From: Collinsella bouchesdurhonensis
GTDB taxonomy: Bacteria; Actinomycetota; Coriobacteriia; Coriobacteriales; Coriobacteriaceae
DNA: 64,000 nucleotides
Direction: 5' to 3'
Assembly: GCF_900155365.1 (NCBI RefSeq)
Contig: NZ_LT699739.1
Coordinates: forward strand, 428,333 to 492,332
Shown piece after piece: positions 1,165-49,842 of the stretch. The notes under the pieces were generated by a model. That model was given only the letters and a program-made list of their open reading frames with translations, ran no database searches and was not told where the DNA came from. Both the position numbers and the translations under genes were made by a program. Numbering within the stretch: the first letter of the stretch is position 1; each line of letters starts with the position of its first letter.

Positions 1165-1198
1165 TGTGACAAAAAGTCGACAGGTTTATTTTGTCACA
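1165..1198 (+). repeat. Dispersed palindromic element, copy A
   Basis: Perfect 10-base arms TGTGACAAAA and TTTTGTCACA enclose a 14-base centre containing GTCGACAGGTTTA. It begins directly after the radical SAM stop codon and lies between convergent genes. It is followed by TTTTCACGAGTCC, a flank also seen after copy B. Orientation is called + when the centre reads GACAGGTTTA. Confidence 0.9.
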
Positions 1199-4928: not shown

Positions 4929-4994
4929 CGATCTCCCTTCCTCGTACGTTTCGCCCACCAGTATACCGACTCCGCTCCCCGCCCCCACTTCCCC

Positions 4995-5026
4995 GTGACA
5001 AAAAGTCGACAGGTTTATTTCGTCAC
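4995..5026 (+). repeat. Dispersed palindromic element, copy B
   Basis: GTGACAAAA and TTTCGTCAC arms around the same GTCGACAGGTTTA centre, + orientation. It lies between the divergent cca and pepC genes. It shares the downstream flank TTTTCACGAGTCC with copy A. Confidence 0.9.
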
Positions 5027-5219
5027 ATTTTCACGAGTCCTACATATTCAGACGCAGCCGACAGATACTCGCGCCATTGCATCCGGAACAAAAAGCGACC
5101 GGGCTGGCGGTCGCCATCTTTCTTTCGCCCTAGAACAGGAATATATTTGCAATGGTCAGCCGTCACGTTCCTGTTGCGCCGCATCGCACGGGAACGCATG
5201 CATTTGATTGGAGACAAAC

Positions 5220-6563
5220 ATGACCATGCACGCCATAGACCTCGCCATAACCCGGGAAACATCAGCCCGCATCGCGCAGGACCGCGCTACCGTCATTGCA
5301 CGCAATGCGGCCAGTTCCTGCGGCATCCGCGCTGCAGCACACAATCCACAGGCAGCGTCGCTCGCCTCGACCACCTTTGATGTGCAGCTCAAGCAGGGCG
5401 ACATCACCAACCAAAAACGCTCCGGTCGCTGCTGGATGTTCGCCAGCCTCAATACCATGCGCTACCGCATCATCAAAAAGCTTGGCATCAAGACCTTTGA
5501 ACTTTCGCAGGCCTATCCCCTCTTCTGGGATAAATACGAGCGTGCCAACTGGTTCTTCGAAAACATTATCGCCACCGCCAATCAAGACCTTGCCGGCCGC
5601 GAGGTGTCTTTCCTGCTAGCAGACCCACTGTGTGACGGAGGCCAGTGGGACATGTTCCGCTCACTCGTTAAAAAATACGGCGTGTGTCCCAAAGAGGCTA
5701 TGCCGGAAACGGCAAACTCCTCCAATACCCGTGACCTGGATAAATATCTCACCCGTTATCTGCGCGCATGTGCAAAGAAACTCCGCGAGGCGGTAACTGC
5801 TGGCCAAACCACAGAAGAGCTGCAGGCGACTAAGAACGAGATGCTCTCCGATGTCTATCGCGCCCTTGTGATCTGCCTGGGCGAGCCACCTGCGTCATTT
5901 GACGTCCGCATCCGCGATGAAAAGGGCGAACTCAAGGCATCGGGAACCTATACGCCGCAGGAGTTCTTCCGCGAGTACGTGGACATGGACCTCGATAGCT
6001 ATATCTCAATCATCAATGCACCCACGCCCGACAAGCCTTATTACCGCTCCTACACCGTTAAATACCTGGGAAATGTCGCCGAAGATGGCGGCGTGCGATA
6101 CGTAAACCTCCCCATCGAGTCACTCAAGCGCGTGGCGGTAGCGCAGATGCGCGATGGCCTGCCTGTGTGGTTTGGCTCCGACGTGGACCAGGGATTTGAT
6201 TCCGAGCGCGGTCTGCTCGACCCCGCCTCGATCGATGTGGACGCGCTCTTCGGCCTGCCTATCGAGGCTGGTCTCAACAAGGGCGATCGCCTGCAATACG
6301 GCGAATCGCTCATGACGCATGCCATGACTCTGCAGGGCGTGAGCCTAGATGCGGCGGGCGAGCCAACCTCTTGGCGCATTGAGAACAGCTGGGGCGAAGA
6401 CCACGGCCACGAAGGCTATGACATCGGCTCCGCCGCATGGTTTGACGAGTACGTTTACCAGGTGGTCGTAGACAAGAAATACCTTACGCCCGAAGAGCTC
6501 GCCGCCTTCGAGAGCGACCCAATCGAGCTTGCCCCCTGGGACCCCATGGGATCTCTTGCCTAG
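5220..6563 (+). CDS. pepC: Aminopeptidase C (bleomycin hydrolase family, C1 cysteine peptidase)
   Basis: About 447 residues, the usual PepC length. The catalytic cysteine lies in QKRSGRCWMFASLN near residue 70. The histidine lies in GESLMTHAMTL and the asparagine in WRIENSWGEDHGHEGY, completing the Cys-His-Asn triad of papain-fold peptidases. PepC acts in the cytoplasm and removes N-terminal residues from peptides taken up by the cell. The ATG at 5220 is preceded by GGAG at a spacing of six; the TTG at 5208 gives a longer frame but no RBS. The stop is five bases before palindrome copy C. The gene appears monocistronic. Confidence 0.92.
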   Translation: MTMHAIDLAITRETSARIAQDRATVIARNAASSCGIRAAAHNPQAASLASTTFDVQLKQGDITNQKRSGRCWMFASLNTMRYRIIKKLGIKTFELSQAYPLFWDKYERANWFFENIIATANQDLAGREVSFLLADPLCDGGQWDMFRSLVKKYGVCPKEAMPETANSSNTRDLDKYLTRYLRACAKKLREAVTAGQTTEELQATKNEMLSDVYRALVICLGEPPASFDVRIRDEKGELKASGTYTPQEFFREYVDMDLDSYISIINAPTPDKPYYRSYTVKYLGNVAEDGGVRYVNLPIESLKRVAVAQMRDGLPVWFGSDVDQGFDSERGLLDPASIDVDALFGLPIEAGLNKGDRLQYGESLMTHAMTLQGVSLDAAGEPTSWRIENSWGEDHGHEGYDIGSAAWFDEYVYQVVVDKKYLTPEELAAFESDPIELAPWDPMGSLA

Positions 6564-6567
6564 ACGA

Positions 6568-6601
6568 TGTGACAAAAAGTCGACAGGTTTATTTCGTCAC
6601 A
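6568..6601 (+). repeat. Dispersed palindromic element, copy C, flanking the RAYT gene
   Basis: TGTGACAAAA and TTTCGTCACA arms with the GTCGACAGGTTTA centre, + orientation. It sits 14 bases beyond the end of the transposase gene and five bases after pepC. With copy D it brackets the transposase in inverted orientation. Confidence 0.9.
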
Positions 6602-6615
6602 TTTTCATCGGTTCT

Positions 6616-7359
6616 TCACAATCGCTGAATAACGCCCCTGCCAATGCCCGTCAATCGCTCCAGCTCACGTATGCTGAAGCCGCGCGCCCTTAAATCTCTC
6701 AAAAGGCCATCGCGCTCGGGTTTTGGCAGGGCTTTTATCTTCGCGGGACTTGCGACGCCATGTTCCGTCAAGACCTCTACCACACGAAAGTCATGGCGAA
6801 GCTCCTCCAGTTCCTCCTCCGCAGGATCCCATATGGGCAAGATATTGTTCGTAAAGGCAACAAAGCCGCGCGGTCCGCCAATCAGATCAAGCACCACAGT
6901 CGTATCCGCAAGCCCTTCTTCACCGCGCGCGTACTGGCCATAGCTGCTCCATCGATAACACCAGGAAGGTTCAATACCGGCTTTTTGCGGGTTATCGTGA
7001 ATATAGCGCACGGTCTCGAGCAACTGTGCGTCGCTTTTGATCGGCTCACTCCAAAATCTCGCATCAAAAAGATGACCAGAATGACCCGTCTTGCGATTGT
7101 ATATACGCGCATATGACGAGAGAACCGCTTGAAAAGCAGCAGACAATGCTTGTTCTCGATCGAGTAACGCCAGATGAAAATGGTTGCCCATCAGACACCA
7201 CGCGATAACAACGATATGCTTTTGCGCGAAAACCTCCTCAAGTTTTTGCAGCAGGAGAAGCCGGTCATCATCGTCCTCGAAAATCAGCTGACGGCCATTG
7301 CCACGAGCGATTGCGTGATAGTAGCCAGATTCCGACATTTTACGCGCGTCTGTTGCCAT
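6616..7359 (-). CDS. REP-associated tyrosine transposase (RAYT, Y1_Tnp family)
   Basis: About 247 residues. The start at 7359 is preceded by GAGGGGGG. The protein begins ESGYYHAIARGNGRQLIF and carries the HUH metal-binding pair in MGNHFHLAL (His60, His62). A tyrosine-rich helix SSYARIYNRKTGHSGHLF (candidate nucleophile Tyr83 or Tyr87) and YIHDNPQKAGI follow, a signature of RAYT proteins and not of IS200/IS605 TnpA. The C-terminal ~85 residues add a helix-turn-helix-like segment (GFSIRELERLTGIGRGVIQ). Family members nick and rejoin REP palindromes as single-stranded DNA. The gene has no IS ends of its own. It lies between inverted copies of the dispersed palindrome, which are the predicted substrate. 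Confidence 0.88.
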   Translation of the reverse strand: MATDARKMSESGYYHAIARGNGRQLIFEDDDDRLLLLQKLEEVFAQKHIVVIAWCLMGNHFHLALLDREQALSAAFQAVLSSYARIYNRKTGHSGHLFDARFWSEPIKSDAQLLETVRYIHDNPQKAGIEPSWCYRWSSYGQYARGEEGLADTTVVLDLIGGPRGFVAFTNNILPIWDPAEEELEELRHDFRVVEVLTEHGVASPAKIKALPKPERDGLLRDLRARGFSIRELERLTGIGRGVIQRL

Positions 7360-7534
7360 AATGCCCCCCTCAGTTAATTGCATTTGACCACAGATTAGAA
7401 AAAAGGAGCTTTTAACAGGGAAAACAATGGCGAACGGTATCTGCGGAAATTCCGCTCCTTCAAATAAAAAAGATCGCAACATCTAACACAAATCAAACAT
7501 GGCTGCTTGCAATGGCCAAACAAGACAGCGCAAA

Positions 7535-7568
7535 ACAAAAGGACCCGCCGATAATTCACGGCGAGTCC
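7535..7568 (-). terminator. Intrinsic terminator of the distal 1-phosphofructokinase gene
   Basis: Ten-base stem GGACCCGCCG/CGGCGAGTCC with one mismatch and an eight-base loop. On the minus strand it is followed by TTTTGTTTTG. It lies about 80 bases after the stop at 7648. The rest of 7360-7612, upstream of the transposase, shows no gene. Confidence 0.7.
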
Positions 7569-7612
7569 ATATCTCAAAGGCCATATTCAGTAAAAATCGG
7601 CGAACGGCGGAA

Positions 7613-7646
7613 TGTGACAAAATAAACCTGTCGTCTTTTTGTCACA
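7613..7646 (-). repeat. Dispersed palindromic element, copy D, flanking the RAYT gene
   Basis: Minus orientation: on the minus strand it reads TGTGACAAAAAGACGACAGG, then TTTATTTTGTCACA. It abuts the stop codon of the 1-phosphofructokinase gene and, with copy C, brackets the RAYT gene as an inverted pair about 1 kb apart. Confidence 0.9.
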
Positions 7647-7647
7647 T

Positions 7648-8577
7648 TTAGGCAATCGCGCGAACCTCGACGTGCTGGCGGTACTCGTCGACCTTGGAAA
7701 AATCGCCCTGGCCTGCGCACTCAACAACATTGGCACCTGTCGCCATGGCCAAACGCAGCGCATCCTCAACATGCTCGGGATCGTCATGCCACATGGACAG
7801 GAACGCTGCGAGCGTAGAATCGCCTGCACAAACCGTCGAAAGCACCTTTACCGGCACCGTGCAGCGCGCATACCAGATATGCTTGCCGTTGGAGAAATAC
7901 GCCCCCTTGCCACCCAGCGTGAGCAGCACGTTTTTGGCGCCCTTCTTATGAAGCTCGGCCATCGCGTCCACAACCGTCTGCTCGTTATCAAGCGAAACCT
8001 CGAGACCAAAGATGTCGAGCAGTTCATCGTCGTTGGGTTTGATGAGCAGCGGTTCGGCCGCAATAAGATCGGACAGCTGAGGGCTCGAGATGTCGAGCAC
8101 GAACTCCGCACCGCGAGCCTTAACGCGCGAGATGACCTGCGAAAGGAAATCTTCGGACGTATGCGGCGGCAGAGAGCCGGAAACAACCAGGCACTCCATA
8201 TCCTCAAGCGAGTCAATCAGGTCGTACATTTCCTGCTCGTTGGCAGGGTTCACCGCAGCACCGGCGTTCACCATATTGAACTCGCGATCCTGAGCGTTAA
8301 GAAATACATTCACGCGCGTGATGCCATCGGTCCACACGGGGTGCACGTCGACACCCTTGGCCTCGGCGCCTTCGACGATAAAGCGGCCGGAAAAGCCAGC
8401 AAAAAAGCCAAGGATAGCAGTGTCTTTACCAAAGTGATGAAGGGCAAAAGAAACATTCAGACCCTTGCCGTTCGGGCTGTAGACGGCGTCGCGCGTGCGC
8501 GTGACGCAGTTGGGCTCCAAGCCATCGCATGTAATGTTGTAGTCGATCGCAGGATTAGCGGTAAGGGTGTAGATCAT
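7648..8577 (-). CDS. fruK: 1-phosphofructokinase, PfkB family (distal copy)
   Basis: A 309-residue ribokinase-fold sugar kinase. MIYTLTANPAIDYNI at the start and YSPNGKGLNVSFAL are typical of 1-phosphofructokinase/tagatose-6-phosphate kinases. TLGGKGAYF precedes the active-site loop VCAGDSTLAAFLS, where the usual GAGD reads CAGD. It phosphorylates fructose 1-phosphate to fructose 1,6-bisphosphate with ATP. It lies downstream of a paralog (8918-9850), ptsI, ptsH and the fructose EII on the same strand, which supports the fructose assignment over tagatose. A purine-rich AGGAGAC precedes the ATG. Confidence 0.85.
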   Translation of the reverse strand: MIYTLTANPAIDYNITCDGLEPNCVTRTRDAVYSPNGKGLNVSFALHHFGKDTAILGFFAGFSGRFIVEGAEAKGVDVHPVWTDGITRVNVFLNAQDREFNMVNAGAAVNPANEQEMYDLIDSLEDMECLVVSGSLPPHTSEDFLSQVISRVKARGAEFVLDISSPQLSDLIAAEPLLIKPNDDELLDIFGLEVSLDNEQTVVDAMAELHKKGAKNVLLTLGGKGAYFSNGKHIWYARCTVPVKVLSTVCAGDSTLAAFLSMWHDDPEHVEDALRLAMATGANVVECAGQGDFSKVDEYRQHVEVRAIA

Positions 8578-8796
8578 GATGTCTCCTTTGTATGGTCCAC
8601 GAGGCGAAATTGCTGTGTAAAACCGCTCCTAGCGTACCAAATCGAAGACCCGCGAAAGCCCTATCCAAAAACAAACAAACACGACAAAAAGCGAAAGACG
8701 GGCTGCGATGCACGCCGGCGGTGGGCATTGCGACATCACTTCATCTACCTGCATAAACTCCTGCCAACGGTCGATTTGAGCCCGTGAACGGTAAAA

Positions 8797-8830
8797 TGTG
8801 ACAAAATAAACCTGTCGACTTTTTGTCACA
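8797..8830 (-). repeat. Dispersed palindromic element, copy E
   Basis: Arms TGTGACAAAA and TTTTGTCACA with the centre in minus orientation (TAAACCTGTCGAC on +). The outer flank GTGAACGGTAAAA resembles the flanks of copies D and F. Confidence 0.9.
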
Positions 8831-12238: not shown

Positions 12239-12272
12239 TGTGACAAAATAAACCTGTCGTTTTTCTGTCACA
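12239..12272 (-). repeat. Dispersed palindromic element, copy F
   Basis: TGTGACAAAA and TTTCTGTCACA-type arms, minus orientation centre (AAACCTGTCG on +), with the outer flank AACGGCAAAA. It lies downstream of the fructose EII gene. Confidence 0.85.
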
Positions 12273-44450: not shown

Positions 44451-44485
44451 TGTGTCACATTAAACCTGTCGACTTTTTGACACAC
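44451..44485 (-). repeat. Dispersed palindromic element, copy G
   Basis: Arms TGTGTCA and TGACACA with the centre in minus orientation (TTAAACCTGTCGAC on +). It lies between the convergent P-loop gene and argF. Its outer arms differ from the main form (TGTCACATTA). Confidence 0.8.
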
Positions 44486-49785: not shown

Positions 49786-49809
49786 CCCGCGCCGCACCGC
49801 AATCCGAAC

Positions 49810-49842
49810 GTGACAAAATAAACCTGTCGACTTTTTGTCACA
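49810..49842 (-). repeat. Dispersed palindromic element, copy H
   Basis: GTGACAAAA and CTTTTTGTCAC arms with the AAACCTGTCGAC centre, minus orientation. It lies between two + strand genes, the methyltransferase and the DJ-1 gene. Confidence 0.85.

Follow-up and report, generated by a model that had tools for sequence, protein, structure and literature searches.

The window analysed here, a stretch of 64,000 nucleotides from Collinsella bouchesdurhonensis, contains a gene that encodes a RAYT-type Y1 HUH protein with an added C-terminal helix-turn-helix (HTH), bracketed by two copies of a dispersed hairpin in opposite orientation (Table 1). An ORF check of the window found the reading frame intact; the ATG start codon has GAGGGGGG 5′ of it, and the longest reading frame extends to 7482. 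The protein matches the Pfam family Y1_Tnp (E 8.6e-9). Among 39 aligned RAYT proteins, the two histidines of the HUH motif never vary and the tyrosine is at least 90% conserved; all 39 match REP_Tyr_transpos. The score of the window protein against the NCBIfam model for REP-associated tyrosine transposases is 61.4 bits, below the curated cut-off of 80, which counts against the interpretation given below. The AlphaFold model (pLDDT 90) presents an HUH core followed by a C-terminal helical region (helices 184–249) with an HTH-like end, and among PDB structures it matches that of REP-bound TnpA_REP (4er8) best (TM 0.74 by target), with IS200-type transposases next. Matches to HTH_7, HTH_23 and HTH_31 were found among the relatives of the protein; a Pfam search of the window RAYT alone found no HTH match. 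The earlier note, made from the letters of this DNA, had recognised a RAYT-type gene from its motifs and had placed it between inverted palindromes; the intact frame, the Y1_Tnp, NHFH and RYIHDNP matches, the 4er8 fold and the positions of copies C and D bear it out on both points. The source genome contains a single copy of the gene.

Table 1. The RAYT gene, the hairpin copies and an associated terminator-like hairpin in the window (window positions).
Feature	Position	Strand	Remarks
RAYT, Y1 HUH tyrosine transposase, 247 aa	6616..7359	-	NHFH = HUH motif; catalytic Tyr within RYIHDNP; C-terminal HTH SIRELERLTGIGRGVIQRL
REP-like hairpin copy C	6568..6601	+	4 nt past stop of C1-peptidase gene (5208-6563); 14 nt past RAYT stop
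REP-like hairpin copy D	7613..7646	-	inverted relative to copy C; 253 bp before RAYT start; 1 nt past stop of pfkB-family gene (7648-8577)
Terminator-like hairpin with T tract, pfkB-family gene	7541..7568	-	copy D lies between the pfkB-family stop codon and this terminator
Hairpin copy	1165..1198	+	immediately past stop codon of 196-1164; type-1 tail 1199-1218
Hairpin copy	4994..5027	+	type-1 tail 5028-5047
Hairpin copy	8797..8830	-	between two pfkB-family genes; type-2 tail ACCGTTCACGG
Hairpin copy	12239..12272	-	
Hairpin copy	44451..44484	-	compensatory stem change TGTGTCA/TGACACA
Hairpin copy	49809..49842	-	
Second-subtype hairpin ATGACAAAAGCCCACGGGTTTGTTTTGTCAT	62478..62508	+	adjoins stop of Zn_peptidase_2 gene
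Hairpin copy, first of direct doublet	63287..63320	+	upstream of Zn_peptidase_2 gene
Hairpin copy, second of direct doublet	63372..63405	+	upstream of Zn_peptidase_2 gene

The hairpin has the form TGTGACAAAA-AGTCGACAGGTTTA-TTTTGTCACA, 34 bp in length and frequently extended by an A-T pair, with a stem of 10–12 bp, a loop of 13–14 nt that contains GACAGGTTTA, and a short 3′ tail. Folded as single-stranded DNA, the regular copies reach about -10 kcal/mol with z-scores of -3.8 to -5.5, the copy at 44451 being weaker; as RNA the hairpin folds at about -9 to -16 kcal/mol. The tail, which lies 3′ of the GACAGG strand, is commonly one of two: TTTTCACA-nn-tCcTTCATAT (type 1), or TTTTGCCGTTCACCG plus an incomplete second repeat (type 2). 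The presence of two different tails behind the same hairpin makes the true 3′ edge of the element ambiguous, and this too weighs against the interpretation below. Within the window, type-1 tails adjoin hairpins only, and type-2 tails are not above chance (9 seen, 5.5 expected). Tails of the CCGTTCACCG type often have a second copy about 22 bp further on, as at window positions 8782–8793 and at three other loci of the same genome (L034, L050 and L053). No GT[AG]G tetranucleotide was found where the hairpin has its 5′ foot, which is unconserved save for the pairing A at -1, and the foot on the complementary strand is AAAA-like.

Ten core copies lie in the window, where shuffled sequences predict none. 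The second subtype, ATGACAAAAGCCCACGGGTTTGTTTTGTCAT, was missed by the core search with GACAGGTTTA; it accounts for the one dispersed site of the earlier note (62478) that proved to be a different element, the others being recovered as in Table 1. The Zn_peptidase_2 gene of this region has hairpins at both ends, the second subtype past its stop codon and the direct doublet upstream. A search of the window against Rfam returned tRNAs only. Mapped over the whole source genome (1.88 Mb), the palindrome is present in 47 dispersed copies with up to 3 mismatches to a 23-base core, against 0 for a reversed-pattern control, and a covariance model gave 74 matches at E≤0.01 (rough E-values). Some copies form inverted doublets with the tails inward (C11:182863-182960, C15:172796-172905 and C10:95068-95190). 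The palindrome had been described as always lying between genes, which is true of 44 of the 47 copies under a simple ORF scheme. The other three are as follows: the copy at 63287 lies within an over-long ORF, yet upstream of its Zn_peptidase_2 domain (residues 56–267); that at 8797 overlaps only an unsupported ORF of 85 aa; and the remaining one is at L056:2515.

Copies dock just behind stop codons in a single orientation. On the hairpin (non-tail) side, 34 of the 47 copies are turned towards the end of a gene, which in 20 cases is 10 nt or less away, while none of the 26 gene ends on the tail side is that close (side difference p ~1e-7). A plain terminator reading of the hairpins was rejected, since in two places, copy D and a site of a sister element, a separate GC-rich terminator hairpin lies beyond the hairpin. 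The stems covary: 7 of 10 stem pairs were changed on both sides, and 95% of the alignment cells were paired, against 79% after shuffling and at most 61% when the alignment was slid. The 12 rows (8 own copies, 3 of the sister element and 1 from Atopobiaceae) were hand-picked to span the variation, so these values demonstrate compensated stem change and are not an unbiased rate.

Bracketing of a gene at one locus is weak evidence, because ordinary genes also lie between inverted copies in this genome, namely a 3-hydroxyacyl-CoA-dehydrogenase-like gene (L035) and an Nramp-like transporter gene (L053), both judged from their translations. The weight of the bracketing argument rests on the comparison across the class. 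Within the genus, 39 of 45 genomes have RAYT homologues, with 1 to 4 in each; the closest are about 46–51% identical to the window protein, with a full-length maximum of ~48% and ~51% over 134 residues for a truncated relic in genome G003. A scan of named genomes, from which the window's own record was left out and in which Collinsella was inferred from contigs of its genus that matched, showed members of the family to occur throughout Coriobacteriia (Collinsella, Olsenella, Enorma, Gordonibacter, Adlercreutzia, Thermophilibacter, Tractidigestivibacter and Atopobiaceae). Among the 75 Coriobacteriia loci with sufficient flank, inverted flanking repeats (E≤1e-3) occurred at 66, against 5 of 75 mismatched-pair controls. 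GGGAC or GGACAG was contained in the flanking repeats of 54 of 65 loci and in 5.5% of random segments, and in the upstream copy the motif was on the RAYT coding strand in 52 of the 54, a polarity that the window locus has as well.

A tree of 68 RAYT homologues, read together with their flanks, revealed bracketing hairpins that are specific to clades, e.g. CACTCATTGGGGACAGACTTACATGAGTG, GGGAAAATGGGGACAGGCACTTTTTTCCC, CGACAAGATGGTGCCAGGTACAAACTTGTCG and AACCTGCCAAAAAGGGACAGGTTTATTTTGGCAGGTT; the last of these has the loop GACAGGTTTA in common with the window element and a different stem. Stems are particular to the individual RAYT clades, while a GGGGACAG-like motif in the loop keeps the same orientation relative to the gene.

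The window element itself has 39 matches in its own genome and none in 66 relatives (44 from the same genus, 22 from elsewhere in the taxonomic family); for this element, the refutation test set by the earlier note thus turned out in favour of its reading. The sister element, with CCTGCC, occurs in C. aerofaciens-like species at 19–44 copies in 24 genomes and is absent from 21; the CATTGGGGACAGAC element is present in the same 24 genomes. The cognate RAYT of the CCTGCC element was seen intact in genomes G011 and G035 and as a relic in G003, and the CCTGCC hairpins bracket these genes. The proposal that copy number tracks the RAYT gene did not hold as a general rule, for the sister element is equally abundant whether or not its cognate RAYT is intact; hairpins thus outlive their RAYT.

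One site of this sister element is polymorphic between species. Eight aligned genomes read AGCTAA|AACCTGCC..hairpin..TTATCTGCGCAAA|CG, and G002 reads AGCTAA|CGACTTAG, so that the unit of difference is the hairpin with a tail of ~13 nt, cleanly gained or lost (direction unpolarised), with a stop codon on one side and a terminator on the other. At a second site (L062) every one of the 23 genomes with the locus has the element, and the site is therefore uninformative on mobility. A RAYT of another clade occupies one chromosomal place across species, where it is intact in several and reduced to relics of ~50–226 bp in others; in G035 the gene is gone and two inverted hairpins are left. This RAYT decays in situ, so it is not carried along when its hairpins spread, and by analogy the window RAYT probably stays put as well rather than moving as a unit.

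We consider it very probable that the window carries a RAYT locus of the group-1/subclass-2.1 (TIRYT) type, together with a REP-like hairpin family of its own that is spread by RAYT; the mobilisation is inferred from comparison of sequences. The best-surviving alternative, in our view rather unlikely, is that the host has selected the hairpins as RNA or DNA elements (3′ stabilisers of mRNA or weak terminators) and that they lie beside the RAYT gene by chance. It would account for the crowding of copies behind stop codons, for the stability of the hairpin as RNA and for the persistence of sister copies without an intact RAYT, but not for the class-wide and clade-specific flanking of RAYT genes, nor for a separate GC-rich terminator hairpin after stop codon and hairpin in two places. 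The conservation of the loop and not of the stem alone, the wholesale change of stems between species and the absence of the window element from all 66 relatives examined also argue against host selection.

Far less probable is an ordinary IS200-like insertion sequence, comprising the RAYT gene and its inverted hairpins, that moves as a unit and has left the scattered hairpins as MITE-like remnants. Inverted repeats do bracket the gene as in a transposon; however, the genome has one RAYT copy, the dispersed copies are hairpin units of 34–55 bp and not full-length elements, and the comparable locus keeps its chromosomal position from species to species and decays there, down to the inverted hairpin dimer of G035. 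Least probable of all is a double-stranded operator of Crp/Fnr type, which was rejected: the arms resemble a Crp-type half-site (TGTGA/TCACA), but the most conserved part is the asymmetric 14-nt loop, the arms are replaced with compensation in relatives, most copies (34 of 47) lie 3′ of genes and not upstream of them, and copies bracket RAYT.

A RAYT-spread hairpin family invites comparison with three known systems. Di Nocera 2013 (PMC3733652) named as TIRtrons the RAYT-like genes with non-GTAG inverted repeats, which have the motif GGGGWSAS. Quentin 2018 (PMC6006769) assigned 20 of 26 TIRtron genes to TnpA_Y1 subclass 2.1, which is RAYT group 1 and has a C-terminal HTH; REP-like sequences were not found there for this subclass, and further analysis of the TIRYT link was asked for. 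The texts of both papers leave Actinobacteria and Coriobacteriia unnamed. The window family likewise combines a RAYT-like Y1 gene, bracketing inverted repeats unrelated to GTAG REPs, a C-terminal HTH and dispersed copies that are moderately abundant in some genomes. The GGGGWSAS-type motif is found in the flanking repeats of the family, where GGGGACAG fits it, and the window element keeps only its GACAG part, in the shortened form GTCGACAG. The present elements differ in that the motif lies in the hairpin loop, the stems are clade-specific and covary, and fixed polarity, docking at stop codons and a polymorphic site could be shown. The window family fits RAYT group 1/TnpA subclass 2.1 (TIRYT), a match made by described features.

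With the canonical REP/RAYT systems (REPtrons) of gammaproteobacteria (Nunvar 2010, PMC2817692; Bertels and Rainey 2011, PMC3116915) the window system shares a Y1 HUH protein with Y---NP, two inverted hairpins that bracket the gene, dispersed intergenic copies of a RAYT-specific repeat family and a RAYT gene that is not multiplied; its inverted doublets resemble REPINs. In contrast to them, it lacks the GT[AG]G foot, has a loop of 13–14 nt and an HTH extension, and is present in tens of copies and not, as is often the case there, in hundreds. The residues W94, Q95 and R104, which read GTAG in E. coli (Quentin 2018, PMC6006769), are not conserved in the window RAYT: the alignment (LFDARFWSEPIKS versus IWQPRFWEHAIRN) gives W94→F, Q95→D, E100→S and R104→K, in a numbering that is our own reading. 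The REP/RAYT system announced by the earlier note therefore stands as a RAYT-type transposase with cognate, dispersed and bracketing hairpins, and not as the canonical proteobacterial pair. It is apparently a class-wide variant of proteobacterial REP/RAYT in which, to judge from the conserved bases, the recognition motif would lie in the hairpin loop instead of the foot. The IS200/IS605 elements (IS608, ISDra2) share the HUH-Tyr fold and hairpin recognition, the latter proposed for the window RAYT. They differ from it by the multiple near-identical transposase copies that move as a unit; here one copy was found in the genome, a related locus decays in place, and there is no full-length mobile unit. 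Our search of the open-access literature found no description of such a system in Collinsella or Coriobacteriia.

The binding, nicking and transposition activities of RAYT, and the roles of the loop and the HTH, are likewise deduced from sequence. With its HUH motif and one tyrosine, RAYT would act as a single-strand DNA endonuclease, most likely recognising the hairpin folded on the strand that carries GACAGG. The catalytic domain would read the conserved loop motif, and another part of the protein, possibly the C-terminal HTH, the clade-specific stem bases. Nicking at the element edges through the tyrosine, followed by joining of the nicked strand into single-stranded target DNA, would scatter copies in intergenic DNA with a preference for sites right behind stop codons. 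The RAYT gene would be inherited in place and, after its decay, the hairpins would remain as fossils. More tentatively, and with considerable doubt, Coriobacteriia might hold many orthogonal transposase–hairpin pairs, in which a constant loop motif GGGGACAG serves the HUH domain, a freely exchangeable clade-specific stem serves another part of the protein, such as the HTH, and insertion is aimed at stop codons; specificity would then diversify via stem swaps and not via a 5′ guide tetranucleotide.

The reading of these loci as RAYT genes with their hairpins extends the REP/RAYT phenomenon to Coriobacteriia, which are common in the gut. It also links RAYT group 1, a large group for which the 2018 survey found no REP-like repeats, with specific hairpins that are dispersed and follow a clear sequence rule. 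Hairpin repeats of this kind shape the 3′ ends of many genes. The many matched pairs, together with a naturally occurring, apparently catalytically dead RAYT clade that has no hairpins, make hairpin reading and movement directly testable. That clade (MQRVWRT...; loci L015, L017, L029, L030, L033, L103, L104, L106-L120 and L123) occurs in 23 C. aerofaciens-like genomes. Its catalytic Tyr is replaced by Ser in 19 of 23 members and the HUH motif is damaged in 11; the reading frame is kept, with a median dN/dS of ~0.27. These features suggest a RAYT that has been domesticated and has lost its catalytic activity.

Other loci of the comparison showed further arrangements. At L128 (G021:C1) a RAYT gene is bracketed by an inverted duplication of 166 bp that holds the hairpin and a tRNA-like sequence. 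At L136-L158 a terminator-like hairpin, CCACCACAAAG..CTTTGTGGTGG, carries a GGGGACAGGCAC loop, and such sequences suggest that other loop-motif hairpins may have been taken up as terminators. At L157, in G019, a transposase-bearing insertion (IS3-like by translation, by eye) is found within the loop of a terminator hairpin of the GGGGAC type and adjoins the place where the CCTGCC hairpin is missing.
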